Source of the DNA: Bacteroidota bacterium
GTDB lineage: Bacteria; Bacteroidota; Bacteroidia; Chitinophagales; LD1
Length of the DNA stretch: 64,000 bases
Reading direction: 5' to 3'
Assembly (NCBI GenBank): GCA_947479455.1
Contig: CANJZE010000015.1
Span: forward strand, 1 to 64,000
The position numbers were made by a program, and so were the translations under genes. Positions 2,879 to 21,240 of this stretch are shown one piece after another (positions within the stretch are counted from its first letter, which is position 1; the number at the start of each line of letters is the position of its first letter). The notes below the pieces were generated by a model. That model saw only the letters and a program-made list of their open reading frames with translations, was not told where the DNA came from and searched no databases.

Positions 2879-3658
2879 ATGCAACAAATTAGCACAGAGC
2901 CACCCGTTTTTGGTGTTCATTATAAAGAAGAAAACTACTACACCGGCTCATTGCCGTGTTTTTATAACCCCGAAGATTTTGAATGGGTAAAGGACATAGA
3001 AGCCCAATGGCAAACCATGCGGACAGAAATTGTAGGCTTTCTGCAAAGTGGCGGCAAGCTCGATGCCTTCACCTCGCCCACCTCACCCGGCTTGTCGTAC
3101 CCCGAAGCGTGGAAAAAAATTTACTTCATGAACTCACTATGGTTACAACCCGCCAACTGCCGCAAACTACCCATTACCTGGGGCATACTGCAAAAAATAC
3201 CGGGCATTACCTTAGGCGCAGTTCTTATTTTAGAACCCAACGGGCGCATACTACCCCACAGTAGCGAAAGCAACATCAACATCCGTTGCCATTTAGGAAT
3301 AAAAATTCCTGCGGGGCTTCCTGAATGTGGTATGCGGGTAGGCCATCAAGAGCGCGGCTGGCAAGAAGGCAAAACGGTTATGTTTAGCGATTGCCACGAA
3401 CACACCGTGTGGAACAACACCACCCAAACCCGAATAATAGTAGCCTTTGATGTACTGCAAAAACAATATGACGGGCAGCGCGTTTGGCTTTGCGCTAACT
3501 ATTTAAGCGCACTCAGCCTGCGCGCTATAGATGCCTATATTCCTTTTCGAAAATGGATGCCTGCTTTCTTGCTCAAAGCTATGCACGTAATGGTTTCGGT
3601 TTTGTGGTGTATTTATTTACCCTTGCAAAAAAGAGCAGTGGCTTTATCGGGCAAATAA
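2879..3658 (+). CDS. Aspartyl/asparaginyl beta-hydroxylase-family dioxygenase
   Basis: 259 aa. Residues about 110-191 carry the Asp_Arg_Hydrox pattern: EPNGRILPHS with His127, NINIRCHLG with Arg136/His138, then GKTVMFSDCHEHTVWN with His175 and a basic TQTR (Arg185). Members of this family are Fe(II)/2-oxoglutarate hydroxylases that use two histidines instead of a full HxD...H triad. They act on proteins, amino acids or lipid A-like substrates (LpxO belongs to the same superfamily). The C-terminus has a hydrophobic segment (about residues 227-250), suggesting membrane association. It is the first gene of a run on one strand with an 8-bp gap to the next gene. An LpxO-like lipid role is possible but unproven. 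Confidence 0.8.
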   Translation: MQQISTEPPVFGVHYKEENYYTGSLPCFYNPEDFEWVKDIEAQWQTMRTEIVGFLQSGGKLDAFTSPTSPGLSYPEAWKKIYFMNSLWLQPANCRKLPITWGILQKIPGITLGAVLILEPNGRILPHSSESNINIRCHLGIKIPAGLPECGMRVGHQERGWQEGKTVMFSDCHEHTVWNNTTQTRIIVAFDVLQKQYDGQRVWLCANYLSALSLRAIDAYIPFRKWMPAFLLKAMHVMVSVLWCIYLPLQKRAVALSGK

Positions 3659-3666
3659 ACGCAAGT

Positions 3667-5397: not shown

Positions 5398-5401
5398 ATT
5401 T

Positions 5402-6451
5402 ATGGCTACAACCAGGCTTCACTCAAAAAAACAAAACCCGCTTAGCAAGCAAACCGACAATGTTCGAACAGTAGCCGGCTTCCTCATCAGTGCCTTTTTT
5501 TTGTGGCTCACCTTTCGCGCTATTGACTTTAGCGGCTTCAAAATAATTCCTCACACACAATCCCTTCTCTTTCTTTTTGCTGCCATGCTCGTACTTCTGT
5601 TTTCGGTTTGGTTACAATCGTTACGCATGAAATTATTTTGGAGCAAACCACCACCATCATCGCCTACAGTTTCTACCCTCCCCAGCTTAATCCTTGGCAA
5701 CTTATACAACAGCATTATACCCGGCAACTTAGGCGAAGCCATAAAAGCATGGCACCTCAGCCGCAAAAACAATCTCCCCTTCGGCAACACCATAGCCGCC
5801 CTAATAACCGAAAAATGGTTAGATGCACACTTGTTTTTATTCCTCTCGGTACTCTATTTTTTGTACCAACCCTTTCAGCCGCACTTTATTCATTATAGCG
5901 TAGCAACCGTTGCGTTTATGGTGCTTGGTCTATCCGTAGTGTATAGCCTTATGAAAAAAATAAAATGGGTTGAAAAAAAAATATGGAGCATTGCCCTGCT
6001 CTACAAAAAAATTGGCATTCCACTTTTTAGAACCTACCTACAGGTTGGTTATTTTCAAAAACATTTACGGCAACAAAAAACACTACTCCGTTTTGTACTT
6101 ATCGGCATAGGCGTGTTTACCCTCAATGTGTTGCAGTATTACTTACTCTTTAAAGCGGTAGCTCTGCACTTGCCCATAGCCAATGTTTCCTCCGCCTACC
6201 TCATTTCGCTAAGCATGGTGGTTATCATTGCCATACCTTCGGCACCGGGCAATATTGGTGTACTGCACTATGGTGTCTACGCCTCTCTGCTTTTTGCCGC
6301 CCACAACTTGGGCATAGCTCCCAATACCGCGCTACTCCAAACTTTTGTGCTGTACACTATTTACCTTCATTGCTCCTGCTTTATTCCTGAAGTTATCATT
6401 GGGTTAGTGGTCTTGCTAAAGGAAAGAAACACACTTTTTCAAAACAGGTAA
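5402..6451 (+). CDS. LPG-synthase-TM / UPF0104 family membrane protein
   Basis: 349 aa. The ATG at 5402, just after the previous stop, is preferred to the longer frame from 5300. It has about seven to eight membrane helices, the conserved N-terminal pattern SIIPGNLGEAIKAWHLSRKN and the C-terminal IPSAPGNIGVLHYG, both hallmarks of PF03706. Members are the flippase-like half of MprF and stand-alone proteins often found near glycosyltransferases, where they are thought to move or build lipid-linked sugars. The soluble lysyl-transferase half is absent. It is co-directional with the neighbouring membrane protein and likely co-transcribed. Confidence 0.85.
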   Translation: MATTRLHSKKQNPLSKQTDNVRTVAGFLISAFFLWLTFRAIDFSGFKIIPHTQSLLFLFAAMLVLLFSVWLQSLRMKLFWSKPPPSSPTVSTLPSLILGNLYNSIIPGNLGEAIKAWHLSRKNNLPFGNTIAALITEKWLDAHLFLFLSVLYFLYQPFQPHFIHYSVATVAFMVLGLSVVYSLMKKIKWVEKKIWSIALLYKKIGIPLFRTYLQVGYFQKHLRQQKTLLRFVLIGIGVFTLNVLQYYLLFKAVALHLPIANVSSAYLISLSMVVIIAIPSAPGNIGVLHYGVYASLLFAAHNLGIAPNTALLQTFVLYTIYLHCSCFIPEVIIGLVVLLKERNTLFQNR

Positions 6452-6592
6452 ACTCTTCGCTTTTTATTTTCCCTCGAATACTTGTTTAATCAAACCACCT
6501 CGGTTACTTTCATCGCCAGAATATTTTTGCTTTATACACTTATCCAAAGCATAATAGTTTATCATTACACCTTTGTTGCCAAACCGTATTTT

Positions 6593-8200
6593 ATGAAAGT
6601 TACATTCGTAGTTTTAGGTTCCGAACAATTAGCCATTAGTCAACTATCGGCCATTGTAAAAAAAGCAGGACACCAAGTAGGTATTGCTTTCAGTGCCTCG
6701 TTATTCCACGACCGCTTCAATCTCGAAATCCCTTCGCTTGCAAAAATAGTGGATGATAGAAGTAATGTAATACAAGCCATCAAAGACCAGCAACCCGATG
6801 TGCTTGCCTTTTCTTGCTTAACCAGCACTTACCAATGGACATTAAGCGTAGCCGAAGAGGCCAAACAAATTTTACCCAATGTAAAAACAGTTTTTGGTGG
6901 GGTGCATGTTTCGGCAGTGCCCGACCGGGTTATCAGCCGCCCTCAAGTTGACTTTGCTGTATCCGGTGAAGGCGATATCGCTTTCCCATTAATTTTAGAT
7001 GCCCTTAGCAAAGGCGGCCCAACAACGCCTATCCCCAATACACGATTTAAAGCGAAAGACGGAACAGTCATAAGAGGGCTTCAACAAGGCTTTATTCAAG
7101 ACCTTGATGCGTTACCCTTTTTCGACAAAGTTATTTGGGAAGATTTTATACGCGTAGGCGATTTGTATTTAACCATGGCTTCGCGCGGTTGCCCTTACAA
7201 GTGTTCGTTTTGTTTCAATAATTTTTTTCACAAACTGCCCGAAGAAAAAACAAAAGGCAACAAGTATGTGCGCATTCGCAGTGTAGACCACGTTATAGCG
7301 GAGTTAGCTTGGGCAAAAAAACGTTACAATATTCGGTATGTAGATTTTCAAGACGATGTGTTTACCACCAGCAAGGCTTGGATAAAAGAATTTACCGACC
7401 GCTACAAAAAAGAAATTGGCATTCCGTTTCAATGCCTCATTCACCCCAAATATTTTGACGATGATATTGCCCGATGGTTGCATGAAGCCGGTTGCGATTG
7501 GATTCAAATGGGCATTCAAACCATGGACGAAAAATTTAAACACGAAAACCTTAGACGATACGAAGAGTCGGACCACATTGTAGAAGCCTTACAATCTATG
7601 CACCGCTATGGCATTCATCCTAAAGTAGATCACATGCTGGGCTTGCCGGGCGAACCTATAGGCTCACAAGCCACTGCGCTTAAACTTTATCAAGAACAAA
7701 CACCCAATAGAATACAAGTATTTTGGACCAGCTTTTTGCCAGGTACCGAAATTTTACAACAAGGTATAGATGCCGGTATTGTTTCCTTAGAACAAGCAGA
7801 TAAACTCAATGAAGGAATTGATTTTTATTTCTTTAGAAATGAAGACAACATCAATAACCCCGGGCTAGTTAAAATATATCAGAATTATGAATTGCTGTAT
7901 AAAATGATACCCGCATTACCCGAAAGTATCCGCTATAAACTTAGCCCCGAAAGAGTGAATTGGATACCTAAATTTATAGGCAGGCTAATCGCCTCTATAT
8001 TGGATGTGTATGTTGGCTTTAAATATAGCAACCCGGAGTTTTCTGCTTATATGAAACACTACTTGCATCACCTTAAATCGTTTGTTATGCAAAAGATAGG
8101 AATGAAACCGCCTAAAGCCACAGTGCCTAAAGCCAATAGCGCCATGTACCCAACTTTAGCCGAACCCGAAACACAAGAAATACATATAGAAGCGGCTTAA
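6593..8200 (+). CDS. Radical SAM enzyme with B12-binding-like N-terminal domain
   Basis: 535 aa. ATG 6593 (MKVTFVVLG) is chosen over an upstream TTG because the first beta strand of the B12-binding fold starts there. Residues 1-150 form a Rossmann-like B12-binding domain (FGGVHVSAVPD at about 101-111) without the classical DxHxxG motif. The radical SAM cluster motif is GCPYKCSFC (Cys200, Cys204, Cys207). Such class B-like enzymes methylate unactivated carbons or make other radical changes in lipids, cofactors and natural products. It is 141 bases after the flippase-like gene and 53 bases before a second radical SAM gene. The substrate is unknown; the setting suggests a glycan or lipid. Confidence 0.88.
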   Translation: MKVTFVVLGSEQLAISQLSAIVKKAGHQVGIAFSASLFHDRFNLEIPSLAKIVDDRSNVIQAIKDQQPDVLAFSCLTSTYQWTLSVAEEAKQILPNVKTVFGGVHVSAVPDRVISRPQVDFAVSGEGDIAFPLILDALSKGGPTTPIPNTRFKAKDGTVIRGLQQGFIQDLDALPFFDKVIWEDFIRVGDLYLTMASRGCPYKCSFCFNNFFHKLPEEKTKGNKYVRIRSVDHVIAELAWAKKRYNIRYVDFQDDVFTTSKAWIKEFTDRYKKEIGIPFQCLIHPKYFDDDIARWLHEAGCDWIQMGIQTMDEKFKHENLRRYEESDHIVEALQSMHRYGIHPKVDHMLGLPGEPIGSQATALKLYQEQTPNRIQVFWTSFLPGTEILQQGIDAGIVSLEQADKLNEGIDFYFFRNEDNINNPGLVKIYQNYELLYKMIPALPESIRYKLSPERVNWIPKFIGRLIASILDVYVGFKYSNPEFSAYMKHYLHHLKSFVMQKIGMKPPKATVPKANSAMYPTLAEPETQEIHIEAA

Positions 8201-8253: not shown

Positions 8254-9786
8254 ATGAACGTTTGCCTTCTTCTTCCACCACGAGTTTTAAAATTGCTTTC
8301 GGCTACTTCTAAACCTTCGCCTCCCTTGGGTTTAGCCTACATAGCAGGAGCTTTGCAAAGCGCAGGCCACAACGTAACGGTCATTGATGCCATAGGAGAA
8401 AATCCGGAACAGGTTAATCCGTTTATGGCTGATAACATTGTTACCAATGGCATTAGTGCACAAGAGATTTTAGAACGCATTCCTAAAAACACACAACTGC
8501 TGGGAGTAAGCATCATGTTTACAGCCAACTGGCTAAGCGATAAAAAACTAATTGATTTTATTGGTGAAAAAATGCCGCAACTTACTATAGTGGCAGGAGG
8601 TGAACACATATCGGCTATACCCGAAGTATGTATGCAACAAGCCAAACACTTAGCCATTTGTGTACTGGGCGAAGGCGAAGAAACAATTGTAGAACTTGCC
8701 AGGGCTATAGAAAACGGGCAAGCGTTACACACTGTAGAAGGTATTGCTTTTAAAAAGCAAAATGAAATTATAACCACCGCCAGAAGAAATAGAACACGTG
8801 AATTAGAAACTATACCACGGCCGGCATGGGAACTATTTCCGGTAAAAGCCTATCACGATTACAGCATGTCGTGGGGGGTAGATAGAGGAAAGTCGTTGCC
8901 CATTATTGCCACAAGAGGATGCCCCTACACCTGCACTTTTTGCTCAAGCCCCGAAATGTGGGGCACGAAATACAGCATGAGACAACCCAAAGATGTAGTA
9001 GATGAAATATCGCATTTAAGAAACAAATTCGGAGCCACTAATTTTGATTTTTATGACCTTACAGCCATTATTAAAAAACAATGGATTATAGATTTTGCCA
9101 AAGAAGTAGTTTCGAGAGACCTGAACATTACCTGGCAAATACCCGGAGGCACCCGCTCCGAAGCTATAGACATGGAAGTAGCTGAATGGCTATACAAATC
9201 GGGCTGTAGAAATATAACATACGCTCCTGAAAGCGGCTCACAAGAAATTTTAAGATTGATAAAAAAGAAAGTGGTCTTGAGCCGCATGATTACCTCTATG
9301 CAACACTCACACACACAAAAAATGAATGTCAAAATCAATATTATGATTGGCTTTCCTGAAGAAAACCACAAGCATATATGGGAAACGCTAGGGTTCTTAA
9401 TTCAAGCAAGCTGGGCGGGCGTAAGCGATATGTTTCCGGCTACTTTTATACCCTACCCGGGCAGTGAGTTGTTTAAGCGACTACGTGCCGAAGGAAAAAT
9501 AAATTTAAATGATGATAATTATTACTTGCGATTTACCTATGGCGATACATTCCTGAAGCCTTATTTTTATAACGAAAAAATAAACAAATACGTGCTTCGG
9601 GTTTACTTAGCTTTATATATCGTAGTGTTTTACAGCACCAATTTTATTTTCAGACCCAGTAGAATTTACCGGCTTATCAAAAATTTATTAACCGGCAACT
9701 TTGAATCGCGCGCAGAAATGGCGATTGAGGAAATTTTCAGAAGAAAATCATACCGCCCCATGCTTTCTCCTACTCCAAGCGCATAA
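8254..9786 (+). CDS. Second radical SAM enzyme with B12-binding-like domain
   Basis: 510 aa. The N-terminal B12-binding-like fold begins MNVCLLLPPR and includes VAGGEHISAIPE (about residues 113-124). The radical SAM motif is GCPYTCTFC (Cys223, Cys227, Cys230). It is related in architecture to the protein encoded just upstream but is not a close copy, so the pair may act in sequence. Families with this architecture include hopanoid methylases, BchE-like cyclases and C-methyltransferases. The C-terminal 100 residues contain a hydrophobic stretch (about 445-465), suggesting membrane association and a lipid-linked substrate. Spacing of 48 bases to the next gene fits an operon. Confidence 0.88.
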   Translation: MNVCLLLPPRVLKLLSATSKPSPPLGLAYIAGALQSAGHNVTVIDAIGENPEQVNPFMADNIVTNGISAQEILERIPKNTQLLGVSIMFTANWLSDKKLIDFIGEKMPQLTIVAGGEHISAIPEVCMQQAKHLAICVLGEGEETIVELARAIENGQALHTVEGIAFKKQNEIITTARRNRTRELETIPRPAWELFPVKAYHDYSMSWGVDRGKSLPIIATRGCPYTCTFCSSPEMWGTKYSMRQPKDVVDEISHLRNKFGATNFDFYDLTAIIKKQWIIDFAKEVVSRDLNITWQIPGGTRSEAIDMEVAEWLYKSGCRNITYAPESGSQEILRLIKKKVVLSRMITSMQHSHTQKMNVKINIMIGFPEENHKHIWETLGFLIQASWAGVSDMFPATFIPYPGSELFKRLRAEGKINLNDDNYYLRFTYGDTFLKPYFYNEKINKYVLRVYLALYIVVFYSTNFIFRPSRIYRLIKNLLTGNFESRAEMAIEEIFRRKSYRPMLSPTPSA

Positions 9787-9834: not shown

Positions 9835-11511
9835 ATGAAAAAATGGGTACCTACCTGTATTATACTAGTTGGCTTTTTAGGCTGTGCGCTACTCTACTTT
9901 TGCGTTGGCTTTTATTATGAAGACCACTCTGGATTAGCTTCTCTTTTTCAAAGTGGTATAGTTACCGGTGGTCGACCAGCAAGTGACTTCTATATCTACT
10001 GTCAAACCTTCACATCGGCTTTTTTTTCTTTTCTCACTCTTTATGTAGCCAAAATTTCTTGGGTTGATTTTGCCTACATCTTTCTTCTCTTCATGGCCTA
10101 TTGCTTTTCAGCAACCATGGTGCTGAATGTTTTGTTTCCACAGCCTATTAAAAAACGAATTGCTACTATTTTTTCGATACTTTTTTTCGTTCTCTTTTTT
10201 GCTGATTCATTTGTGTTTTTTAGTTGGGTAAGGTTATCTTACATAGGCACATTTTTGCTCTTGCTTGGTTGCCTATGGGTAACGGAAACCAATCCTGAAA
10301 GTAAGCTAAAATGGTGGCTCTACTTTTTTACAGTTTTACTTTTTAGCCTTTGCCTTTTTATAAGGTATGAAACGGGTATAGCAGCTTGTGTGGCAGTAGG
10401 GGTCTATCTAATTTGCAGAGGCGGTAGTATGGCTATCGTAAGCAAAGCACTCGCCTTGCCTTTTGTTATCACGGCATTGTTTATCGTTTATCTCTATTTC
10501 AAAGCCGATGAAATTCCTTTTCTAAAACAAACAGAACCCGCCCTATACTATATTTCAGATGCCGTAAATAATCCCAATTTTTTTTCGAGCAAACCGCAAA
10601 TTGATTCTATCAAAAACTTAGCCGTGCTTAACTACTTCATTATTGATGAAGGCATCATTACAGTCGATTTTATTCAAAGCATGGCAACACAAAAAACAAG
10701 ATTGTTTTCACAAAACTCCACTACTATTTTTGAAAATTTAAAAGTGGCATATCACCTTACACTGCCCTTTATTACAAAATACGTAGAACTTGTTTTGCTC
10801 CATTTAGTAGCCTTTCTTTTTTTATTGCGCAAAACCAAAGGTAGTTCGCGACTGGGCATATTTGTTTTCAATTTATTTATTGCCGGCATTGTGGTAGGCA
10901 TGGCTTACGGCATAAAAATGGAAGACCGAATTTTTATATCGCTACTGATAACCGGGAGTATTTGCAATCTATTGTTTATAGAAAAAATCAGTATAGAGAA
11001 CAGAAAAATCGGTTGGGTTATACGCCTTGCAATAGCAGTACTTTTGCTCTCCTTTTCCACAAGGTTTGTGGCAAGGGCAGTGGCGTTTAAAAAGGAGACC
11101 TTAAAAATTGAACATCTTGCACATACCATTGACCGTAGAGCAAAAGGTAAATATCTATACCTCGATGTTCATTCTAATTGGCTTTTGCGGGGGGCTTTAT
11201 TTAGGTCGAGTGTTATGCCTAACGTAAAACAAATTTTATTTTATGATGCGGGGCAATTAGGACTATTACCCTTTTTTAAAACCATAGCAGATAACACTTG
11301 CCAATGCAAGTCGGCTCATGTGGATCAATATTTTCATTTTTTGCAAAACGAGGCAAACAATCTTATCCTTATTTCTACCATCAATAGAATGGGTTTTATA
11401 AAAGGTTATTTGGAATTGGTTCACCATCAAAAAATTGTTTTTGAACAAGGCGAAAAAATAACAGACGGTAATGATTTGTATTATTTCACCATCAAACAAA
11501 ATCGCCCATAG
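9835..11511 (+). CDS. Polytopic membrane protein, paralogue of 3667-5397
   Basis: 558 aa with about ten to eleven membrane helices in residues 5-420 and a soluble C-terminal tail. The first loop has an acidic YYEDH, comparable with YYEVYE in the upstream paralogue. The tail ADNTCQCKSAHVDQYFHFL matches NNNCHCNSTHIEELYDYL of the paralogue, and both end with a conserved YL..VHH. A GT-C-like transferase or polymerase role is plausible, but I see no diagnostic catalytic motif. The two copies bracket the radical SAM pair and the flippase-like gene. Confidence 0.7.
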   Translation: MKKWVPTCIILVGFLGCALLYFCVGFYYEDHSGLASLFQSGIVTGGRPASDFYIYCQTFTSAFFSFLTLYVAKISWVDFAYIFLLFMAYCFSATMVLNVLFPQPIKKRIATIFSILFFVLFFADSFVFFSWVRLSYIGTFLLLLGCLWVTETNPESKLKWWLYFFTVLLFSLCLFIRYETGIAACVAVGVYLICRGGSMAIVSKALALPFVITALFIVYLYFKADEIPFLKQTEPALYYISDAVNNPNFFSSKPQIDSIKNLAVLNYFIIDEGIITVDFIQSMATQKTRLFSQNSTTIFENLKVAYHLTLPFITKYVELVLLHLVAFLFLLRKTKGSSRLGIFVFNLFIAGIVVGMAYGIKMEDRIFISLLITGSICNLLFIEKISIENRKIGWVIRLAIAVLLLSFSTRFVARAVAFKKETLKIEHLAHTIDRRAKGKYLYLDVHSNWLLRGALFRSSVMPNVKQILFYDAGQLGLLPFFKTIADNTCQCKSAHVDQYFHFLQNEANNLILISTINRMGFIKGYLELVHHQKIVFEQGEKITDGNDLYYFTIKQNRP

Positions 11512-11625
11512 GCAACTTATTTTTCTATCGCACCCTCATTTGTATAAACGAGAAGTCGATTTTTTGCAGTTTTTATTTTCACCAAGCCCACTAAATAGTA
11601 TCTTCGCTTTAGATACTTATACCAA

Positions 11626-12537
11626 ATGATACAACCCATTTTTAAAAACGAATTGCATCAACAGCAATTTGAAAAAGACGGCTTTGTGGTTGCCAGAAAA
11701 CTAATACCCGCGGCTGTGGTTACAGCGCTGCGTCAACTGTATTTCAAATTTCAAAAAGAACATCATGGAGATAAATTAGGCATGCACTCCACCGCCCATA
11801 CTAACAATTACGAAATACTACATGAAATACACGAAACCTTGGTTGACCTTACCACAGAATATGCCGACCAGTTTTTAATGAATTATAAATTTTATCTCGG
11901 AAATTTTTTGGTGAAAGAAAGTCGTAAAGATTCTCTTTTTGACATGCATCAAGATTGGAATTGTGTGGATGAAAGTCAATTCTGCTCACTCAATTTTTGG
12001 ATGGATTTAGAAGGCATGAATAAACATAACGGAAGGTTGTTTTTTGTAAGAGGCACTCATCGTTTAGCCCCTAATATTCGATTTGCCCCTAACTGTCCTA
12101 CCCCCTGGCAAAAAGTAAAAAACATTGCTCCCCTTTTCTATACCTACTTAGATACAGAACCGGGCGATGTCGTTTTTTTAAATAACGCCACCCTGCATGG
12201 TTCGGTCATAAATACTTCTGGCAAAAATCGAATAGCGGCTGTGCTAGGCACTTATCCTGCCAATGCAACTCTACTGCACTACTACAAAGATGCCGATGCT
12301 CCGCTCGATAAAATAGAGCGGCATATTGTAACCACCGAAGGACTAACCAATATGCCAAGAGGTCAGCGGCCTGCCGGTAGCATTATGGATGGGTATGTAA
12401 CCTACAACACTCCCGAGGTAACGCCAAAAGAATTTGTTGATTTCATGATGAAGCAGTACAACATGAAAGACAAAATGGTACATTATGTCAGAAGGTTAAA
12501 TAAAAGTTTGCGTTTTGAAAATACGAACGAAGCATGA
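11626..12537 (+). CDS. PhyH-type Fe(II)/2-oxoglutarate dioxygenase 1
   Basis: 303 aa, typical length for a phytanoyl-CoA dioxygenase family member. It starts FEKDGFVVARKLI like the family. The metal triad is complete: MHQDWN (His108, Asp110) and LHGS (His191), with Arg202 (KNRIA) for 2-oxoglutarate. Bacterial members hydroxylate small molecules, amino acids and sugars in biosynthetic clusters. Its stop codon overlaps the next start (ATGA, 4 bases), giving translational coupling to dioxygenase 2. The substrate is unknown. Confidence 0.88.
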   Translation: MIQPIFKNELHQQQFEKDGFVVARKLIPAAVVTALRQLYFKFQKEHHGDKLGMHSTAHTNNYEILHEIHETLVDLTTEYADQFLMNYKFYLGNFLVKESRKDSLFDMHQDWNCVDESQFCSLNFWMDLEGMNKHNGRLFFVRGTHRLAPNIRFAPNCPTPWQKVKNIAPLFYTYLDTEPGDVVFLNNATLHGSVINTSGKNRIAAVLGTYPANATLLHYYKDADAPLDKIERHIVTTEGLTNMPRGQRPAGSIMDGYVTYNTPEVTPKEFVDFMMKQYNMKDKMVHYVRRLNKSLRFENTNEA

Positions 12538-13382
12538 TGATGGATCCCCTTTTTTTAAATCCCAAAATTAATGAGGAGTATCTGCAAAATGGATTTGTAA
12601 AAATCCCATTTGTGGAGGAACAACATTTAGTAGCGTTGCAAAAACTCTTTACTAAATATTGTCCCGATTTTACACATAGCGATGGGCAAGTGTTCTACAG
12701 TATGTTTGCCAACAGTCTTCAAAAAAACAGACAACTCAAGCAAGAAATGAATGCCTTGCTTTATCCTTGTTATCAAAAAATATTGACCAACTATGAGGTG
12801 TTTGCCGAAATGTTTTTAGCTAAAAAAAAAGATAACAACCCTCTCTTGCTTCATCAAGATTGGAGCTATGCTAAAGAGCAAGAAACATTAACCGCCACAC
12901 TCTGGTTGCCTTTGCAATCAACTTCAGAAAATAATGGAGGCTTGTTTTTTATTCCCGGTAGCCATTTGTTTTTAAAAAATTACCGCAGCAATTCGCTTCC
13001 CACCGGCCGAATTCCCATAGATGAAACTTTGCAAAAACATATTGTAAGTGTACCCGTCAATGCCGGAGAAGCTGTGTTTTTTCACCAGGCAATTTTTCAT
13101 GGCTCTCATGCTAACCATTCGAATCAAGATAGAGTAGTGGCCGCAAGCATAATTTTACCAAAAAACAAAGTGCCTCAATATTTTCACTCGGCTCCAAACA
13201 TCCCAATGGTCAATTGTTATAACCTTACCGATGACCATTTCTTTAAGGGCATACAAACATTTGACAACAGCCATGCTTTTGACGAGGAAAAAATAATTTA
13301 TTCCTTTCCTTATGCCCATCAAATTATTTCTTCTGAAACTTTGCTGGCGGCAATAATCCAACAGAAAAAAAATGCTTTTTAA
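12534..13382 (+). CDS. PhyH-type Fe(II)/2-oxoglutarate dioxygenase 2
   Basis: 282 aa. The start is within ATGATGATGG overlapping the previous stop; any of the three ATGs could be used. N-terminus YLQNGFVKIPFVEEQ fits the family. Triad residues are His107 and Asp109 (LLHQDWS) and His189 (FHGSHANHS), with Arg200 (QDRVV). It is clearly related to its neighbours on both sides, consistent with tandem duplication followed by divergence. It overlaps the next gene by 11 bases. Confidence 0.88.
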   Translation: MMMDPLFLNPKINEEYLQNGFVKIPFVEEQHLVALQKLFTKYCPDFTHSDGQVFYSMFANSLQKNRQLKQEMNALLYPCYQKILTNYEVFAEMFLAKKKDNNPLLLHQDWSYAKEQETLTATLWLPLQSTSENNGGLFFIPGSHLFLKNYRSNSLPTGRIPIDETLQKHIVSVPVNAGEAVFFHQAIFHGSHANHSNQDRVVAASIILPKNKVPQYFHSAPNIPMVNCYNLTDDHFFKGIQTFDNSHAFDEEKIIYSFPYAHQIISSETLLAAIIQQKKNAF

Positions 13383-14226
13383 CCAGGCGGAATTAAATCA
13401 AACGTATGCCGAAAATGGCTTTGTTATTCTCCCTTTAATAAACGAAGAAACACTTCATCTGCTTCGGCTTCTCTATCGACAAAACTACCCGCAAGAAATG
13501 GTGGGATTGCAACCTTCGCTGCGCATTGGCGATGCGCAAAAAAATATTGCTCTTCATCATCAAATAGGCGAACTGCTTACCCCTTCGTTACAAAAATGGT
13601 TTACTCCTTTTGCATTTAACGCTAATCATTTTATAGCCAAAGGCGCGAAAGCTGAACACGAATTTGAACTGCATCAAGATTGGAATGTGGTGGATGAAAC
13701 CAAATATTTGGCCGCACATATTTGGATTGCTCTGCAAGATATTGATGAGCAAAATGGAGGTTTGTTTTTAGTAAGCGGTAGTCATCGTTTTTTTGATACC
13801 GTTCGAAGTGGTTCCTGTGGCATTCCGTTTATTAAAGCTACCGAAAAAGTAAAACCATACATTACCTCGCCAAGCATAAAAGCAGGCGAAGCAATTGTGT
13901 ATCAGCAGGCATTATTTCATGGTTCATTTCCTAACAGCAGTAGTCAAGTTCGCTTGGTTTGCTTATGTAGCATTCGCCCAAAAGATGCATCAATGTTGTA
14001 CTTTCAGCAACAAGATTCCGCAATTTTTGCCTATGAAATTTCACCCGAAATTTTGTTTGAACAAGTAAAGTCGTTTGAACAAGGTGTAGCCCCCAAGACC
14101 CACTCATTACCTGTAAAAATTGAACAAAAACCATTACCTACGCACAGTCTAAACAATCCTGTTTTCGAAGCGCAATTAACTTACAAAAAACAGCCAGATG
14201 CTAAAAAAAATACTCGCTTGGTTTAG
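13372..14226 (+). CDS. PhyH-type Fe(II)/2-oxoglutarate dioxygenase 3
   Basis: 284 aa, overlapping the genes on both sides (11 and 29 bases), which implies tight co-translation. Triad residues are His101 and Asp103 (LHQDWN) and His183 (FHGSF), with Arg194 (QVRLV). The motif FVSGSHRFF-like region (VSGSHRFFDTV) matches dioxygenase 1 and 2. All catalytic residues are present, so it should be an active hydroxylase-type enzyme. A terminal Lys/Asn-rich extension of about 40 residues follows the core and overlaps the halogenase-like gene. Confidence 0.88.
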   Translation: MLFNQAELNQTYAENGFVILPLINEETLHLLRLLYRQNYPQEMVGLQPSLRIGDAQKNIALHHQIGELLTPSLQKWFTPFAFNANHFIAKGAKAEHEFELHQDWNVVDETKYLAAHIWIALQDIDEQNGGLFLVSGSHRFFDTVRSGSCGIPFIKATEKVKPYITSPSIKAGEAIVYQQALFHGSFPNSSSQVRLVCLCSIRPKDASMLYFQQQDSAIFAYEISPEILFEQVKSFEQGVAPKTHSLPVKIEQKPLPTHSLNNPVFEAQLTYKKQPDAKKNTRLV

Positions 14227-15097
14227 CCAACCACAAAAGCAAAAGCCATTTTCAAAATGGGAAAACATTCCGGTAGGCGACCTTAAAAAAGGAGAACCCT
14301 ATATTGACCATCTTTATAATAGAGTAACCGATGGCTATATCATTCAAAATGTGTTGAACGAAACGGAAGTGAAAGAGTTAGTTTCTGCTTTTGAAAATTT
14401 AGATGCTTATAAAGCGGTTCACTTTGAAAAAAGAGAGGGATTTATAAATCCAAGAGCATTTTCTCAGATTCAGAATGAAAATGAATTTGACTTCGACTTA
14501 TTAAACTCCTACTTGAACGATGCCGAATGGTTTGCTAAGTTTTTGAAAGAACGTCTGAGTTTTAACATCAAAGAAAAATTGTTAGACACCTTAGCCAAAC
14601 TCCAAAACAATGTGCCAATTACTATTCCTAACTATTCAACAGGCGGCACGCACAAAGCGTTCACCTTTGCTACTTACCGATTTTTAAAGCCTGACAAAGG
14701 AGGTATGCATATTCACTGCGGCAGCATGTTTCGGGAGATATATCCTAACTTCTATAAGCAGTTAGATAAAATCATCAATTTTGATGGACAGCTTAGTTAC
14801 TTTTTAATGCTTCAACGGCCCGAAAAGGGAGGTCAACTCCGTTTGTTTGATGCCGAGTGGAAAGACTACAAAAAACATTTTGATGGGTTGGGTTTTGTCA
14901 ATGACCAAGAGCAAGTAAAAGCCATGAACGAAACGATTATACAAGATATTGACCCTAAACCTGGCGACCTGCTCATCTTTGTGGGGGGCGATATTTGGCA
15001 CGAAGTAACTAATCCCGAATTGGGTTTGCCCCGCATTACTTTAGGTGGATTTTTGGCATACTCTAATAAAAGGGATGAAATTTATGTTTGGTCATAG
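14198..15097 (+). CDS. WelO5-like Fe(II)/2-oxoglutarate enzyme with HxG triad; candidate halogenase
   Basis: 299 aa. The metal site reads GGMHIHCGSMF: the position normally held by Asp/Glu of HxD/E is Gly (His173-Cys174-Gly175). The distal His is His268 (GGDIWHEV) and Arg279 (LPRITLGGF) should bind 2-oxoglutarate. Loss of the carboxylate leaves a site for chloride or bromide, as in WelO5-type (HxG) and SyrB2-type (HxA) halogenases. From memory of WelO5, the His-to-His spacing (95 residues), the length (about 290), a GQLSYF...GG.L motif, PGDxxxFxGGxxWHxV and the C-terminal GGFLxxS all agree. The gene overlaps dioxygenase 3 by 29 bases. Halogenation is inferred; some HxG proteins may do other chemistry. 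Confidence 0.8.
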   Translation: MLKKILAWFSQPQKQKPFSKWENIPVGDLKKGEPYIDHLYNRVTDGYIIQNVLNETEVKELVSAFENLDAYKAVHFEKREGFINPRAFSQIQNENEFDFDLLNSYLNDAEWFAKFLKERLSFNIKEKLLDTLAKLQNNVPITIPNYSTGGTHKAFTFATYRFLKPDKGGMHIHCGSMFREIYPNFYKQLDKIINFDGQLSYFLMLQRPEKGGQLRLFDAEWKDYKKHFDGLGFVNDQEQVKAMNETIIQDIDPKPGDLLIFVGGDIWHEVTNPELGLPRITLGGFLAYSNKRDEIYVWS

Positions 15098-15147
15098 AGG
15101 ATTATATAGCCGCAATGCTTAACCAAGTTGATGCGGTTAACTGAACC

Positions 15148-17091
15148 ATGGAAGCAATAACAATTAAACAACTCGGAAAAACATTTCACACACCTAACGG
15201 TTCGGTAAAATTATTTTCCGACTTAGGGTTCACCATTCATCAAGGTGATGTAATTGGCATAATTGGCAAGAATGGAGCGGGGAAAAGTACACTACTAAAA
15301 ACACTTTCAGGCATCATAAAACCATCTTCAGGTTCAGTAGAAATTTATGGCAAGCTAAACTCTATTATAGATTTAGGACAAAACATGAATCCTGATCTTA
15401 CAGGATTACAGAACCTATCTTTGAATCTTAAAATTAACGGCTTTAGTAAAGCGGTAGCACAGCAAAAAATAAATGAAGTTTTAGCCATAGCTGAATTGGG
15501 AGAAGCTATTCACCAACAAATAAAAAACTATTCAAGCGGCATGTTGTTCCGTTTGGGTTTTGCTTTGCAAACCGTTGTTGATTGCGATATTTTGTTGGTT
15601 GATGAAATTATATCGGTTGGCGATTTGCAGTTTCGAAACCAATGCGACACTATCATTAGAAATTTTATTGCACATGGCAAAACATTGCTCTTGGCTTCGC
15701 ATGATATTGACACCATCAGTTCTATTTGCAACAAATGTTTATTGCTGCACAAAGGCGAATTTCTTTTTGGAGAAACAAGTAATGTGATTCGTTTTTATAA
15801 ACAATCTATAGAAGGAACAAAACCCGAACACACTATTGGAAATGAACAGATTTTTTATGCACAAGCCGCTGCTGCTGAAAAAAACGCTTCGCTAATTAGT
15901 GTTGAACAACCCAATGGAAAAGCAAAAATAAATTTTGACCAACCGCTAACCTTAGCGATTCGTTATAGGGTCAATACTCCGATGGTCATGGGCATTACTC
16001 TAAGCCTTTTTTTTCAACAAAAAATACCTTTGTTAAGCAGTTGTATGCAGTATGTTCATTACAACAATCAGCAAGTTTTGTTACACCAACCTGGAGAGTA
16101 TCATTTAGCCGTTACGTTTCCTGCCGGTTTGCTTGCCCCGGGAACTTACTCTGTTGATTTGGCGTTTCACGATAACCAAGAAATGGTCTTTAAAAACCAC
16201 AAAACGGCTTACATTTTCCAAATAGAAGCAAATGAGTCTTTGCTATCTGTTTTTAAAAAATCATTACCGCCATTTCCGCTTTTGCCGGCTCTCGAATGGC
16301 AATTTTTAACCGACAAAAAAAATAACAACTCTATTTTTAAAAATCCAAATTTACAGCAAGGACTTTATACCGCAGGCTATGTAAAAATGCCTGCTGTTAC
16401 ATTAGCCATCGTTGCCGCCATGCGTGCTTTTTATTTTCAGATGTTTCCCGAAATAGAGGCTGATGGACAAAATAATATTAGCATCATTCATGAAAGTGTT
16501 GGGGTAAGAGAAAAATGTCAAACAGAAATTTTGCGATTACTTTCTGGCTATATGGAAGAGCATTTTAAAAACTTCAAAATCATTTTAGCTACCTTTTTTG
16601 CCAAGCCATTGAATCATGAATCTTGTGTGGGTTATCATCAAGACCCTACCTTTACTGACCCCGAAAAATTTGATGACTACACCCTTTGGATTCCTTTAGA
16701 AGATATTTTAGAGGGAGATGGAGAGTTGGTGGTCATTCCAAATTCGCATACACAGTTTCATAAAATAAATTTCTTTTCAAGCCCATCCCCTTACTTAGCT
16801 TTAATTAAAGAACAGGACGAAGTATTGGTGCCTTCCCCAAGCGGTCATCCGGTTATGTTTTTTAACCGTACAGTGCATGGTTCAAAACAGAACGGAACAA
16901 AAGATATTAGAGTAGCAGTGTCCATTAAGATTTGCCATCAAGCGGCTAAACTCTATTCGTATTTTAATAGTGAACTACCCGGCAAAGCAGAACGTTACTC
17001 ACAACCCGAATGTTTTTATTTAAATGCAGATTGGGATGAAACCAAACGACCTTCACAAGAAAAACTAAACGGTATGGTTGATTTAATTTGA
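15148..17091 (+). CDS. Wzt-like ABC ATPase fused to a PhyH dioxygenase domain
   Basis: 647 aa in three parts. Residues 1-220 are an ABC ATPase of the polysaccharide-export type: Walker A GKNGAGKST (40-48), signature YSSGM (128-132), Walker B ILLVDE (148-153), H-loop His185. Residues about 232-362 look like a Wzt C-terminal carbohydrate-binding beta sandwich (LTLAIRYRV, YHLAVTFPAGLLAPGTYSVDLAF). Residues about 395-647 are a complete PhyH domain with His497/Asp499 (YHQDPTF), His577 (VHGSK) and Arg588. In known O-antigen systems the Wzt C-terminal domain reads the terminal modification of the chain; here a modifying or proofreading oxygenase seems attached to the exporter itself. Its permease partner is probably 20425-21240. 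Confidence 0.88.
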   Translation: MEAITIKQLGKTFHTPNGSVKLFSDLGFTIHQGDVIGIIGKNGAGKSTLLKTLSGIIKPSSGSVEIYGKLNSIIDLGQNMNPDLTGLQNLSLNLKINGFSKAVAQQKINEVLAIAELGEAIHQQIKNYSSGMLFRLGFALQTVVDCDILLVDEIISVGDLQFRNQCDTIIRNFIAHGKTLLLASHDIDTISSICNKCLLLHKGEFLFGETSNVIRFYKQSIEGTKPEHTIGNEQIFYAQAAAAEKNASLISVEQPNGKAKINFDQPLTLAIRYRVNTPMVMGITLSLFFQQKIPLLSSCMQYVHYNNQQVLLHQPGEYHLAVTFPAGLLAPGTYSVDLAFHDNQEMVFKNHKTAYIFQIEANESLLSVFKKSLPPFPLLPALEWQFLTDKKNNNSIFKNPNLQQGLYTAGYVKMPAVTLAIVAAMRAFYFQMFPEIEADGQNNISIIHESVGVREKCQTEILRLLSGYMEEHFKNFKIILATFFAKPLNHESCVGYHQDPTFTDPEKFDDYTLWIPLEDILEGDGELVVIPNSHTQFHKINFFSSPSPYLALIKEQDEVLVPSPSGHPVMFFNRTVHGSKQNGTKDIRVAVSIKICHQAAKLYSYFNSELPGKAERYSQPECFYLNADWDETKRPSQEKLNGMVDLI

Positions 17092-17102: not shown

Positions 17103-18245
17103 ATGAAAAATAAATTTCTTTTAGGCTTGTTTTTTGGCGCACTAAGCCTTTCATTCATGATAGTGGAAGTGTACCTCGACAAATTTGTTTTTACACAAAA
17201 CAATTACCAGGGTAAAGTGCTATGCTCTTTAAGGCAAAAAATGTTAGAAAAACAATTGCCTGATTATGTTGAACAACCTTTCTTAGGGTATTCAAATTCT
17301 CCTACACCAGTAAATAACGACTCTACATTTGCCGTCAACTCATTAGGCTTGAAACGGCTTGAAAAAACGACCTTAAAAAAAGCGGATAGCACCTATAGAA
17401 TATTGTTTCTTGGCGGACCTTCTACTTGGGGTATGGTCAACAACTTGAAAGACACTTATCCAATGATATTGGAAAAGCTATTGAACGAAAAAAGAGATTC
17501 CCCGGTCAACCATCAGTATAAAAAGTATGAATGTTTAAATGCAGGCTTGCGAGGAGCCGCCTCTGCCGATTTGCTAGTTCAATACTTATTCAAGTTTCAA
17601 TATTTAGAACCGGACCTCATAGTTATTCATGCAGGATTTAACGATGCCTTCACTTACCTCTGCCAAGCCTACCAAGTACAATACCAACCCGATTATCACA
17701 CGGTAAAGAGAATTTATCAGGAACCCAATTATGACTTCGGTATGTTTCGGCATTTGTTCGTTTCAAAAGCCATTAGTTATATGGCAATAAAAATTTTTTA
17801 TCACGATTTTATAACATCTGCTCCGCCTTACAATCCCTTTTTTCAATTTAGAAACTATAACCTTTGGTTTGAAGCGGGCAATGATTCTATTTTCTCTACC
17901 CATTACAATGCTCTTTACAACAATGTCAGAAATTTGGTTGCCGTAGCTTCATCTAAAAATCAAAAGGTGTTATTGGTTCCTGAATTTTACTACAAATACG
18001 ACCCACTATTTGGCAAAGAAAATCAGCAAATGTTTGAACAAGGAATAGCGATGAATGATTCTTTTTTTAGAAAAATTTCTGTAGAAATGAAAGTCCCTCT
18101 TTGTACGTTACCTATCCAAAATTTTTCTGCCGAAATGTTCCTCCCAAATGAAGACCGATATGTAAACGAAAAAGGGGAGGCGATGAAAGCAAAATTGATT
18201 CTTCCCTATGTGGAAAAAATTATAGCCTCGACTTATTTACCTTAA
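17103..18245 (+). CDS. SGNH/GDSL-like hydrolase, membrane-anchored, atypical catalytic end
   Basis: 380 aa, 11 bases after the fused ATPase. An N-terminal hydrophobic segment (residues 4-23) is a signal anchor, placing the rest in the periplasm. Block I is FLGGPSTWG with the putative Ser107; block II LNAGLRG (Gly148); block III IHAGFND (Asn180). The usual C-terminal DxxH(L/F)(T/N)xxG motif reads DRYVNEKG (351-358), so the catalytic His appears replaced by Tyr or Val. Relatives act as O-acetyl-esterases or O-acyltransferases on glycans. It may be an altered or non-hydrolytic member. It ends 4 bases from the convergent PhyH gene. Confidence 0.72.
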   Translation: MKNKFLLGLFFGALSLSFMIVEVYLDKFVFTQNNYQGKVLCSLRQKMLEKQLPDYVEQPFLGYSNSPTPVNNDSTFAVNSLGLKRLEKTTLKKADSTYRILFLGGPSTWGMVNNLKDTYPMILEKLLNEKRDSPVNHQYKKYECLNAGLRGAASADLLVQYLFKFQYLEPDLIVIHAGFNDAFTYLCQAYQVQYQPDYHTVKRIYQEPNYDFGMFRHLFVSKAISYMAIKIFYHDFITSAPPYNPFFQFRNYNLWFEAGNDSIFSTHYNALYNNVRNLVAVASSKNQKVLLVPEFYYKYDPLFGKENQQMFEQGIAMNDSFFRKISVEMKVPLCTLPIQNFSAEMFLPNEDRYVNEKGEAMKAKLILPYVEKIIASTYLP

Positions 18246-18249: not shown

Positions 18250-19245
18250 TTACTTAGCAAATCGATCATCAAGTGCTGCTTGCAATGGAGTTGGTTGCAA
18301 CAACGTTGCTACATTAGTGGCTGGTACATGGTATTTTTTACAAAGAGATAAAAAACTACCCTCCGTCATTTGAGTTGTGTCCCATTTCACAAACCCTATA
18401 CTTTTCCCCGTTTCCGGACGGCAGTGGCAATCATGTTTAAAATTGGGATAGGTGAGTAAAAAGTCGGAGCTCTGCTCAATTAATTCAATTGCACTATTCG
18501 AACTTTCGGGGTCTTTAAAACATGAAATGAGCGGGGCATCAATGGGATAAACGCCAGACATAACCACAACTCTATCTTTCCCAGAAGTATTGATGCCCGA
18601 ATTATGCACCAAACGATTATCGAACAATAAAATGTCTCCTCTCTTCAATTCTATCGGTTGAAGATATTTGCGTATGGTATTCTCAATGTTGTGAAATGGT
18701 GGCTCAAAAGAAATTCCCCGATATGGCGAAAACATTTTATGGCTATGTGGTACTACACACAGGCAGCCGTTTTGCATGTTCGTGTCTTGAAGGGGTATCC
18801 AAACCGAAAGGTTGGAGTATTTTGTTTCGTCAATGCCCGTAGAGTCTTGGTGCAAACAAAATTCACTTTCAGGTCCGCTTACTTTCGCAATAAAAGAGTT
18901 TAAGACAACTTTATAATCAGAAAAAAGAGAATTGTAAACTGGTTTTAAAAGTTCATTGATGCCTTCATGTACTTTTTTTCGGTATTCAATATCGCGCGAA
19001 TAAACGCTGTAGAACATACCGCCCGTTACAATATCAAAATTATGGAGCTGTGCATACAAGTCGCTAAGTTTTTGGATGGTAGAATTTTCAAGACGACCTG
19101 CCACGATATAGCCTGTATCTAAAAGAATATTTTCTGCCTCTTCGTTTTGAACAAAAGTGCGCCTTACAGGACTCCAATTTTTAGTTATTGAATCGGATGT
19201 TGTAAAATACTTTTTTATGAAGTCAGCTACCATAGTTGTTGTCAT
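18250..19245 (-). CDS. PhyH-type Fe(II)/2-oxoglutarate dioxygenase 5
   Basis: 331 aa, with about 40 extra N-terminal residues compared with the three tandem copies. Triad His132/Asp134 (CLHQDST) and His214 (LVHNSG), with Arg225 (KDRVV), all present. A C-terminal extension carries HDCHCRPETGK. It is last in a three-gene minus-strand unit (permease, oxidoreductase, this gene) and convergent with the SGNH-like gene, with only 4 bases between the stops and no terminator hairpin visible. It is the fifth PhyH domain of the locus. Confidence 0.87.
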   Translation of the reverse strand: MTTTMVADFIKKYFTTSDSITKNWSPVRRTFVQNEEAENILLDTGYIVAGRLENSTIQKLSDLYAQLHNFDIVTGGMFYSVYSRDIEYRKKVHEGINELLKPVYNSLFSDYKVVLNSFIAKVSGPESEFCLHQDSTGIDETKYSNLSVWIPLQDTNMQNGCLCVVPHSHKMFSPYRGISFEPPFHNIENTIRKYLQPIELKRGDILLFDNRLVHNSGINTSGKDRVVVMSGVYPIDAPLISCFKDPESSNSAIELIEQSSDFLLTYPNFKHDCHCRPETGKSIGFVKWDTTQMTEGSFLSLCKKYHVPATNVATLLQPTPLQAALDDRFAK

Positions 19246-19296: not shown

Positions 19297-20313
19297 CTAA
19301 CCATTCAATCTAATCTGTTTTCCCAACTGCGCGTTGGAAGAGTAAGCACTATCAACTATTTGCCAAATTTTTTCGGATAGTTCAAATTCGCTTGGCAATT
19401 TTCTCTTTTCGCGAATGCACTTGATGAACTCCTCTAATTCATTGATGAGTGGTTCAGGATAATTTACATTAGGGATAAGGATATCTCCACTTTTAACCGC
19501 TAATTGAAAACTTCCAAAATCGCTCGAAAGGGATTGATATTCCCGGTCTGATTTTATGATGCGTAGTTTTTCAGAAGTTTGCACGTCATCAAATATCATC
19601 ATGCATTTGTCTCCGGTTATTTCAATAATGCGTTGCTTTAGCGGGCTAACCCAAGAAACATGCACGCTGGCAATTATTCCATTTGCATATCCCATTTGCA
19701 TAAAAGCCATATCTGCATGTCCCTTTCCTAAAATAGCTCTGGTTGTGCAACTTACCCATTCGGGCATACCCATCCAGTACAGTAAAATGGAAATATCATG
19801 CGAGGCTAAATCATTCACCACATCTACATCGTGCCGAACCAATCCATGTCCTGTTCTTTTGAAAGTGAGGTACTGCATTTTGCCTAATTCACCGTTTACA
19901 ATGGCTTGCTTAATGTGGCGAACCACAGAGTTAAACAGAAAAGTAAAACCGACTAAAAGAGTTAGATTTTTTTTATCAGCTAAATCGTGCAAAGTTTTTA
20001 TCTCCTCTTTTTTATCGCTCAAAACCTTTTCACACAAAACATGTTTGCCATTTTCAAGTGCAAACTTTACAATTTCGAAATGAGTAGATACTGGTGTGGC
20101 AACAACGACAGCTTCAATTTCTTTCGTATTCAGTAACTCATTTGTGTCTGTTACATTCTTTACATGAGGATATTGTTGCCTAATTTGTTCAATGCGTTTT
20201 GCATCTGAATCGGCTATTGCAAATAATTTACAATTTGCACTGTTATCTATAATCCGTGCAAAATTTTGCCCCCAATAACCGCAACCAATCAATCCAATAT
20301 TTATTTTCTTCAT
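19297..20313 (-). CDS. Gfo/Idh/MocA family sugar oxidoreductase
   Basis: 338 aa. The ATG at 20313 (MKKINIGLIGCGYWGQNFAR) is chosen over an upstream ATG because the Rossmann fold starts immediately. The GLIGCGYWG dinucleotide motif, a CEKVLS segment (the usual EKP Lys context, with Val for Pro) and NDLASHDISIL (the catalytic His region) are present. Relatives such as WbpB/WlbA oxidise nucleotide-linked sugars at C3 in surface-glycan pathways. Its place between the Wzm-like permease and a PhyH gene supports a nucleotide-sugar role. The C-terminal domain is of normal length. Confidence 0.85.
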   Translation of the reverse strand: MKKINIGLIGCGYWGQNFARIIDNSANCKLFAIADSDAKRIEQIRQQYPHVKNVTDTNELLNTKEIEAVVVATPVSTHFEIVKFALENGKHVLCEKVLSDKKEEIKTLHDLADKKNLTLLVGFTFLFNSVVRHIKQAIVNGELGKMQYLTFKRTGHGLVRHDVDVVNDLASHDISILLYWMGMPEWVSCTTRAILGKGHADMAFMQMGYANGIIASVHVSWVSPLKQRIIEITGDKCMMIFDDVQTSEKLRIIKSDREYQSLSSDFGSFQLAVKSGDILIPNVNYPEPLINELEEFIKCIREKRKLPSEFELSEKIWQIVDSAYSSNAQLGKQIRLNG

Positions 20314-20424
20314 AGTATTAAGAAGCGAATCAATCAATACTTCCGTCTTAGTCTGTACTTGTTTGAGGTTTTGTGTTTTAAAAAGGTGAAGATTAGAGAT
20401 AGATTAGTCTCATTACAAAAGCAA

Positions 20425-21240
20425 TTAAGCATAATCAACCATACTGTCTTCTACTTGGCTAAAATACCACGTACCTACTATCATTACCGCAACCATAATG
20501 AATATAGATGTCCAATAAAAAAATTCAGGGAACGGTTCTCCTAAAAGTGCAAAACGGTAACCCTTAATAATACCGGCCATAGGATTAGCATAAACAAAGG
20601 CTTCATAACCCGCAGGAATAATTGTGGTTGGAAAAAAAACTGGGGTTACCCAAACGCCAATGCCAATGATGGTTGGCAAAATTTGATTCAAATCGCGAAA
20701 GCGAATACTCAATGCGTTCATCCAGATGGCTACCGCATAGCCGCAAAGAATATTCAGTAAAATAAAAAGCGGTAACGTAAATAGGTTGACAGAAAAACCT
20801 ACGCGCTCATACGCCATTAGCAAGAGCAGAATCATGAAGGAAATGCCTGCTTCTACACAAGCGATAATGATTTTTGATAAAGGCAAAATGAGTTTTGGGA
20901 AATACATTTTGCGAATCAAATTTTGCTTTTGCACAATAGCGGTCGATGCATTATTGGTAATGTTTGAAAATAAATTCCATGCTATCATACCTGTGAAAGC
21001 GAATAAATAATAAGGGGTTTGTGTCGCTACGTGCAAAAAGAACTTGAAAATAATCGTAAATATCATGAGTGTAACTAACGGTCTAATTACCGTCCACAAT
21101 ATTCCAAAATAAGTTTGGGCATACATCGTTTTTAGTTCTTGTTGAGCAAAAACCCAAATAAGACTGCGAAATTTCATCAACTCTTTCCAATATTCCTTCG
21201 CTGAAATTGGTTTTGATGTAATAATTTTTACGTTTTGCAT
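20425..21240 (-). CDS. ABC-2 type polysaccharide/polyol phosphate export permease (Wzm-like)
   Basis: 271 aa with six predicted membrane helices. The N-terminal amphipathic region YWKELMKFRSLIWVFAQQELK and ending motif NPMAGIIKGYRFALLG are typical for the Wzm/TagG/KpsM family. It should pair with an ATPase of the Wzt type; the only one in the window is the fused protein at 15148-17091 on the other strand. Its start lies one base from the end of the truncated MCE fragment, so the present promoter may lie in that fragment (TATCTTTA, near 21247-21254) or be the old mla promoter. The product would export an undecaprenol-linked glycan. Confidence 0.88.
   Translation of the reverse strand: MQNVKIITSKPISAKEYWKELMKFRSLIWVFAQQELKTMYAQTYFGILWTVIRPLVTLMIFTIIFKFFLHVATQTPYYLFAFTGMIAWNLFSNITNNASTAIVQKQNLIRKMYFPKLILPLSKIIIACVEAGISFMILLLLMAYERVGFSVNLFTLPLFILLNILCGYAVAIWMNALSIRFRDLNQILPTIIGIGVWVTPVFFPTTIIPAGYEAFVYANPMAGIIKGYRFALLGEPFPEFFYWTSIFIMVAVMIVGTWYFSQVEDSMVDYA

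Follow-up and report, generated by a model that had tools for sequence, protein, structure and literature searches.

A candidate WelO5-type halogenase with an HxG metal site in an apparent surface-glycan export locus of a Bacteroidota bacterium

Introduction

The question raised by this locus is whether a gene embedded among oxygenase and ABC transporter genes of a Bacteroidota bacterium encodes an aliphatic halogenase and, if so, on which molecule such an enzyme would act. The gene (positions 14198 to 15097, + strand) lies in a window of 64,000 nucleotides, by which the whole stretch of analysed DNA is meant. According to the accessible parts of two papers, the named halogenases of the WelO5 family act on cyanobacterial alkaloids (PMC11186838, PMC8406957). 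Open-access searches on halogenases, halogenated glycans and PhyH oxygenases in polysaccharide loci gave, among the matches listed and as far as title and beginning of the abstract tell, no paper that describes WelO5-type enzymes from Bacteroidota or places these halogenases in glycan loci. A review of brown algae from 2010 notes that polysaccharides carrying halogen had not been reported from them at any time (PMC2866472).

Active site and predicted fold of the candidate

The gene is an intact open reading frame of 299 residues. By direct reading, the site on which the original prediction had been built was found as described (His173-Cys174-Gly175, His268 at a distance of 95 residues from His173, and Arg279), together with Ser200 and a C-terminal GGFLAYS motif. 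The claim that motif spacing and a C-terminal GGFLxxS region resemble WelO5 was also correct, the spacing being equal to that of WelO5. The Pfam profile WelO5 (PF22814) matched the protein with 176.9 bits (cut-off 27, E 7.9e-52) over profile positions 1-277 of 277, a score so far beyond the cut-off that a chance match can be excluded. Within the PDB, WelO5 and WelO5* chains were the only convincing sequence matches (E 2.7e-22 to 2.7e-21), followed by 4iw3 with an E-value of 0.6; the ten hits obtained by phmmer at E-values up to 10 did not include any SyrB2, BesD or AdeV chain. NCBIfam assigned no family to the protein, and neither the AspH profile PF05118 nor the PhyH profile matched it at an E-value of 1.

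In the alignment with WelO5 (5j4r), residues H173, G175, S200, H268 and R279 correspond to chain indices 165, 167, 190, 260 and 271, which are the published WelO5 numbers plus one (anchored by G166, named in the title of the G166D entry 5iqu, and by S189). His173, Gly175, Ser200 and His268 are thus the counterparts of WelO5 His164, Gly166, Ser189 and His259, while Arg279 aligns with the arginine located eleven residues after His259; we take Arg279 to be the 2-oxoglutarate-binding (2OG-binding) residue of the set. Gly175 coincides with Gly166, where the halide site of WelO5 is located. Two alignments, one of 23 and one of 27 family proteins, showed no variation at H173, H268 and R279.

An AlphaFold2 model built from 27 sequences (mean pLDDT 88.6) superposed on 5iqs_B, i.e. 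WelO5 with Fe, Cl and 2OG, with a VIA Z of 33.3 and an rmsd of 1.9 Å over 261 residues. In the comparison with WelO5, which had been suggested as a check, Gly175 fell on Gly166. The next structural family, represented by the N-substituted amino acid dioxygenase 3w20, presumably SadA, reached only Z 17.5. As judged by sequence comparison and by a predicted model, the protein meets the tests for membership in the WelO5 family; its function is inferred. The profile match, the predicted fold and the alignment of the active site agree in indicating WelO5 and support the proposal of a halogenase candidate.

Some other explanations for the presence of the HCG site and of the gene were discarded. A chance motif was ruled out by the profile and structure matches. 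The GC content of the gene (0.379) is close to that of the window (0.396) and shows nothing unusual, which speaks against a recently acquired foreign gene as far as composition can tell. A plasmid or phage origin was rejected because tblastn searches of both the plasmid and the phage collection came out empty; viral contigs gave 25 pattern matches, not one of which encodes a relative. The gene exists as a single copy in its own genome. Scans for promoters and terminators yielded no more than scans of shuffled sequences.

Variation of the metal site among relatives

Within the bacterial family to which the window belongs, 30 genomes were searched and 18, that of the window among them, contained relatives scoring above the cut-off; in the order this was the case for 26 of 348 genomes. 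In a sample of the phylum (395 genomes), three exceeded the cut-off, namely the genome of the window itself and two others with only partial matches. A scan of named genomes yielded 26 loci; going by their record titles, all stem from metagenome assemblies, one being a Cenarchaeum bin and the other 25 belonging to Bacteroidota.

The metal site could be read in 46 family proteins including that of the window. This set omits the PDB chain, contains one HCE protein from stretch L082, and was obtained after three fragments without the site had been dropped (L052:20545, whose full copy is that of L082, L060:9941 and L087:7927). An HxG site is present in 31 of the 46 proteins (28 HCG, 3 HNG); the remaining sites are HxE (seven), HxD (six) and HxH (two). 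Two of the HxD proteins, L065 and L090, are weak members of the family. If the protein of the window is left out, 30 of 45 relatives carry HxG and 15 carry HxE, HxD or HxH, glycine thus being the commonest state. An acidic residue as the norm among relatives, which would have refuted the halogenase proposal, was therefore not encountered, albeit with support from distant relatives only. Proteins with HxE, HxD or HxH score far above the Pfam WelO5 cut-off (107-169 bits for four of them), and since they belong to the family as well, membership in Pfam WelO5 does not by itself predict halogenation. The equivalent of Ser200 (S189 in WelO5) is also present in 13 of 14 HxD/E/H relatives and, being equally common there, fails to separate the metal-site classes.

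The PhyH domains found in the first 31 stretches were aligned to serve as a control. Apart from nine of 147 domains that were unreadable, 132 of 138 showed HxD, five HxN and one RxE. HxG is thus absent from the readable PhyH domains of the same loci, and it follows that the acid has been lost specifically in genes of the WelO5 type. The idea that the PhyH neighbours might be further halogenases was dropped, as HxG or HxA was found in none of the 138 readable domains.

Five pairs of HxG relatives were available for estimating selection, two of which were saturated in dS. The other three pairs, to which the protein of the window does not belong, gave dN/dS values of 0.04, 0.03 and 0.08, and these HxG relatives are under strong purifying selection.

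Two family proteins (L086:9695-10540 and L089:1259-2101) have HIH at the metal site, possibly a three-histidine centre. In the site-masked tree described below they group with WelO5 (99/92). In stretch L087 an HCG WelO5-type gene (7927-8894) is broken into two reading frames; an intact copy exists in the same genome (L088), and the split gene is possibly a decayed copy.

Phylogenetic position of the candidate

In a first tree comprising 37 rows, the HxG label changed twice (bootstrap range 1-3), while four changes (4-6) were inferred from a tree of 42 rows in which the site had been masked. The L082 protein is absent from both. Repeated switching of the metal site within the family is suggested by these trees but not shown, since a single HxG clade was not rejected by the AU test (p 0.116).

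The protein of the window stands alone on a long branch, which measures 1.9 changes per column in one tree and 1.6 in the other. Its identity to relatives amounts to at most 31% over 284 columns, or 37% to one fragment, and it groups weakly with two HCG proteins in the masked tree (84/76). No near orthologue was detected among the collected relatives. Gly175 is for this reason supported by distant relatives only.

Gene content of the locus

The candidate gene is part of a tight run (11626-17091). It is preceded on the same strand by three genes for PhyH-type 2OG oxygenases with an HQD site (11626..12537, 12534..13382 and 13372..14226, all +), which overlap their respective next gene by four, 11 and 29 bases, the last overlap being that with the candidate. 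After a gap of 50 bases, a gene follows (15148..17091, +) that encodes a Wzt-like ABC ATPase (ABC_tran) with a C-terminal PhyH domain (HQD); a Wzt_C match was weak and remained below the cut-off (27.1 bits versus 30.4). The sequence of this fusion suggests an oxygenase that is physically tied to the exporter. In the first 31 stretches, which contain 19 ABC proteins, no second fusion of this kind was seen. An ABC-2 type, Wzm-like permease (ABC2_membrane) is encoded at 20425..21240 (-), and the locus therefore possesses both a Wzt-like ATPase, though with Wzt_C below the cut-off, and a Wzm-like permease.

Upstream of the run, genes were identified for an AspH-type (PF05118) 2OG hydroxylase (2879..3658, +), a membrane protein of the LPG_synthase_TM family (5300..6451, +) and two B12-binding radical SAM proteins (6482..8200 and 8254..9786, both +). 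Downstream, a weak match to SGNH/GDSL hydrolases (17103..18245, +; 28.8 bits, cut-off 32.9) is followed by a fourth separate gene for a PhyH-type oxygenase (18250..19245, -; HQD) and by a Gfo/Idh/MocA oxidoreductase (19297..20337, -), for which the best NCBIfam model, UDP-GlcNAc 3-dehydrogenase, reached 150 of 450 bits, far below the cut-off. The PhyH gene at 18250-19245 also matches weakly the chlorinating-enzyme model TIGR01762 (25.9 bits, cut-off 226.3). All four separate PhyH genes gave weak matches to TIGR04324 and TIGR04436, far below the curated cut-offs.

Two membrane proteins, one of 558 residues (9835..11511, +) and its paralogue with 20% identity (3553..5397, +), had no match in Pfam. 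The model of the former (pLDDT 73.9) had ArnT as best Foldseek match (E 2.7e-4), with low TM-scores of 0.39-0.45 by query length in the five best matches. In the structure comparison, the first 34 entries are, by title, glycosyltransferases or complexes holding one (Z 11.9-6.2), while the first unrelated entry has Z 5.9; entry 27 is a translocon complex whose chain was not named. We assume that these glycosyltransferases are GT-C enzymes. Among helical proteins a Z below about 13 may merely reflect a common arrangement. Due to the middling confidence of the model and the best Z of 11.9, assignment of 9835-11511 as a GT-C glycosyltransferase is likely but not secure; the same function is possible for 3553-5397, judging from its relationship to the former.

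A Pfam scan of 15 genes of the locus (2879 to 21240) revealed neither a GT-A nor a GT-B glycosyltransferase, nor an isonitrile synthase or aromatic prenyltransferase, and NRPS or PKS genes were not found among them either. Hapalindole-type alkaloid clusters are marked by genes for an isonitrile synthase and an aromatic prenyltransferase. The context is best explained by ABC-dependent export of a surface glycan or glycolipid, the exported molecule being inferred. The Wzt-PhyH fusion, the ABC-2 permease and similar loci in many relatives are consistent with the surface-glycan locus and the Wzt-like exporter that had been proposed initially.

Related loci

Gene neighbourhoods were counted for 43 of the 46 family genes (without L064, L065 and L082); some stretches end at contig ends, and any match to the ABC domain of the window was counted as ABC. 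A PhyH gene adjoins 30 of the 43 WelO5-type genes, that of the window included, and 21 of the 31 HxG genes, whereas eight of the 43 lie in stretches without any PhyH gene. A Wzt-like ABC ATPase occurs in the same stretch in 25 cases and a B12 radical SAM gene in 16.

Altogether, 129 PhyH-type ORFs were counted in 26 of the first 31 stretches, with up to seven full-length genes (at least 240 residues) in one stretch, and the first set contains 17 tandem PhyH proteins. Dense oxygenase islands with eight to nine PhyH-type ORFs per approximately 20 kb, some of them cut or fragmentary, are present in L060, L054, L028 and L025. The own genome of the window has 14 PhyH matches in three islands; two of these (L091 and L092, on C9 and C2) lack a WelO5-type gene, and L092 combines PhyH and radical SAM genes with others that resemble, on inspection by eye, GT2 and GT1 glycosyltransferase genes. 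Scanning of ten representatives of the related loci revealed three GT2 proteins.

Other arrangements were seen as well. Stretch L023 (6351-8962) contains a tandem of three WelO5-type HNG genes beside Wzm-/Wzt-like genes, with no PhyH gene found in the stretch. A multihaem cytochrome-like protein (L029:6677-7840) has relatives in seven stretches, in six of which they adjoin a B12 radical SAM gene. An HCG relative (L085:9968-10891) lies beside Wzm-/Wzt-like and PhyH genes in a genome of 7.5 Mb on one contig, which probably stems from a cultured strain.

Discussion

The protein encoded at 14198-15097 is most readily understood as a WelO5-type aliphatic halogenase that modifies an exported glycan or its precursor, a reading to which we assign a probability of about 0.45. 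Its two parts are individually better supported: halogenase function is probable, and, given a halogenase, a glycan or glycan precursor is to a similar degree the probable substrate. Family, predicted fold, aligned active-site residues and gene neighbourhood are established, while halide binding, halogenation and substrate are inferred.

If this reading is correct, Fe(II) would be held by His173 and His268 and chelated by 2-oxoglutarate, aided by pairing with Arg279. Chloride or bromide would bind to the iron at the position that Gly175 leaves vacant. An iron(IV)-oxo species would abstract hydrogen from an unactivated carbon, whereupon Ser200 might retain the OH so that the halogen rebounds onto the carbon. 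For WelO5, S189 is described in the accessible part of a study as holding the hydroxide during halogen rebound (PMC13244439). The likeliest substrate would be a sugar or an acyl or alkyl group of the surface glycan, or a nucleotide- or lipid-linked precursor; the neighbouring oxygenases may modify the same substrate and the Wzm/Wzt-like transporter may export the product.

The original prediction regarded the missing carboxylate as the signature of a halogenase. It was right in that the site aligns with the HxG of WelO5, but the feature alone does not suffice. Human AspH has a two-histidine centre in which water replaces the acid, and its own substrate is, as far as the available part of the report goes, not halogenated (PMC13168262). 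By analogy with AspH, absence of the carboxylate is insufficient evidence for halogenation. Moreover, in a hydroxylase homologue of BesD, exchange of the acid for glycine alone was insufficient for efficient halogenation, according to the part of that study available to us (PMC13244439). The main rival is consequently an enzyme whose open site is taken by water and which, in the manner of the neighbouring PhyH enzymes, acts as a hydroxylase on the glycan or its precursor. Besides the precedent of AspH, the HxE, HxD and HxH members of the WelO5 family and the hydroxylase-type oxygenases encoded next to the candidate can be cited in its favour. Yet AspH belongs to another family, whose profile PF05118 the candidate does not match at an E-value of 1, while the candidate superposes on WelO5. 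In addition, the characterised HxG members WelO5, WelO5* and AmbO5 are halogenases according to the accessible text of one paper (PMC5480362), glycine has been retained at high divergence, and the HxG relatives are under purifying selection. We consider a hydroxylase without carboxylate unlikely for these reasons, although it cannot be dismissed. A degenerate enzyme that has lost its activity would fit the long branch of the protein but is very improbable in view of the intact reading frame, the preserved family-invariant residues and the low dN/dS values (0.03-0.08) of the HxG relatives, even though the protein of the window itself is not part of the measured pairs.

Two further possibilities leave halogenation in place and concern its outcome. 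It is conceivable that the halogen is later removed for the formation of a ring, a double bond or a new linkage, the final glycan being halogen-free. Coronamic acid and the BesD alkyne pathway are precedents for such cryptic halogenation, and many other modifying enzymes are encoded in the locus, but no dedicated partner enzyme was identified beside the HxG genes, the recurrent neighbour being PhyH (21 of 31). We deem this improbable, and no more credit is due to the idea that the halogenase acts on a lipid or a small secreted molecule which is exported by the ABC transporter without becoming part of a surface polymer. WelO5 itself acts on a small alkaloid, and the lack of GT-A and GT-B enzymes among the 15 scanned genes would be compatible with a small molecule. 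On the other hand, the same 15 genes comprise no NRPS or PKS, and the Wzt_C-like domain, the sugar-type oxidoreductase and the possible GT-C proteins favour a glycan, as do the three GT2 proteins of related loci and the GT2/GT1-like genes, recognised by eye, in the second PhyH island of the same genome.

A WelO5-type halogenase acting on the exported glycan or its precursor hence remains the preferred reading. The candidate differs from the characterised members of the family in host group, locus and, presumably, substrate. Extending the reading beyond the window is more tentative: there may be an undescribed and widespread Bacteroidota branch of WelO5-type halogenases that chlorinates or brominates ABC-exported surface glycans, with up to about seven full-length PhyH genes per locus and several switches between HxG and HxE, HxD or HxH. 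Should such a branch have surface glycans as its substrates, it would make available enzymes for the halogenation of sugars or lipid-linked precursors and would point to halogenated polymers on bacterial surfaces. Its members would also form a natural set in which variation is found at the very residue that is believed to determine whether halogenation or hydroxylation takes place. The cell may thus carry chlorine or bromine on its surface glycan, but this is inferred, as neither activity nor product nor halide has been observed.

Comparison with known systems

To the sporadic carbohydrate clusters (TIGR04324, TIGR04436), the window is linked merely by the weak matches of its four separate PhyH genes. 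SadA (3w20) shares its overall fold with the candidate (Z 17.5), but with 16% identity it is a much weaker match than WelO5. AspH resembles the candidate in that the site of the third protein ligand is open (PMC13168262, accessible part); it differs in belonging to another family, in the water at its open site and in hydroxylating protein domains. Another parallel in terms of the metal site is SecA of Pseudomonas syringae, which has HxG/A within a clade of HxD/E proteins and for which, in the available portion of the paper, chlorination was demonstrated (PMC12171316). As SecA shows, HxG/A amid HxD/E relatives can signal a true halogenase. The structure of SecA is, though, near to AtsK and far from WelO5, and its substrate is secimide A (PMC12171316, likewise as far as accessible). 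WelO5, WelO5* and AmbO5, cyanobacterial alkaloid halogenases of PF22814, remain the nearest known systems. The comparison covers WelO5 and WelO5*, which share with the candidate the profile, the fold, the HxG site with a second histidine 95 residues further on, the arginine, the equivalent of Ser189 and the C-terminal GGFLA(F/Y)S...WS. What separates the candidate from them is an identity of only about 26-28%, its origin from Bacteroidota and a presumably different substrate; moreover, WelO5 and AmbO5 belong to hapalindole-type alkaloid clusters, whereas the candidate is encoded in a locus that seems to serve glycan export.
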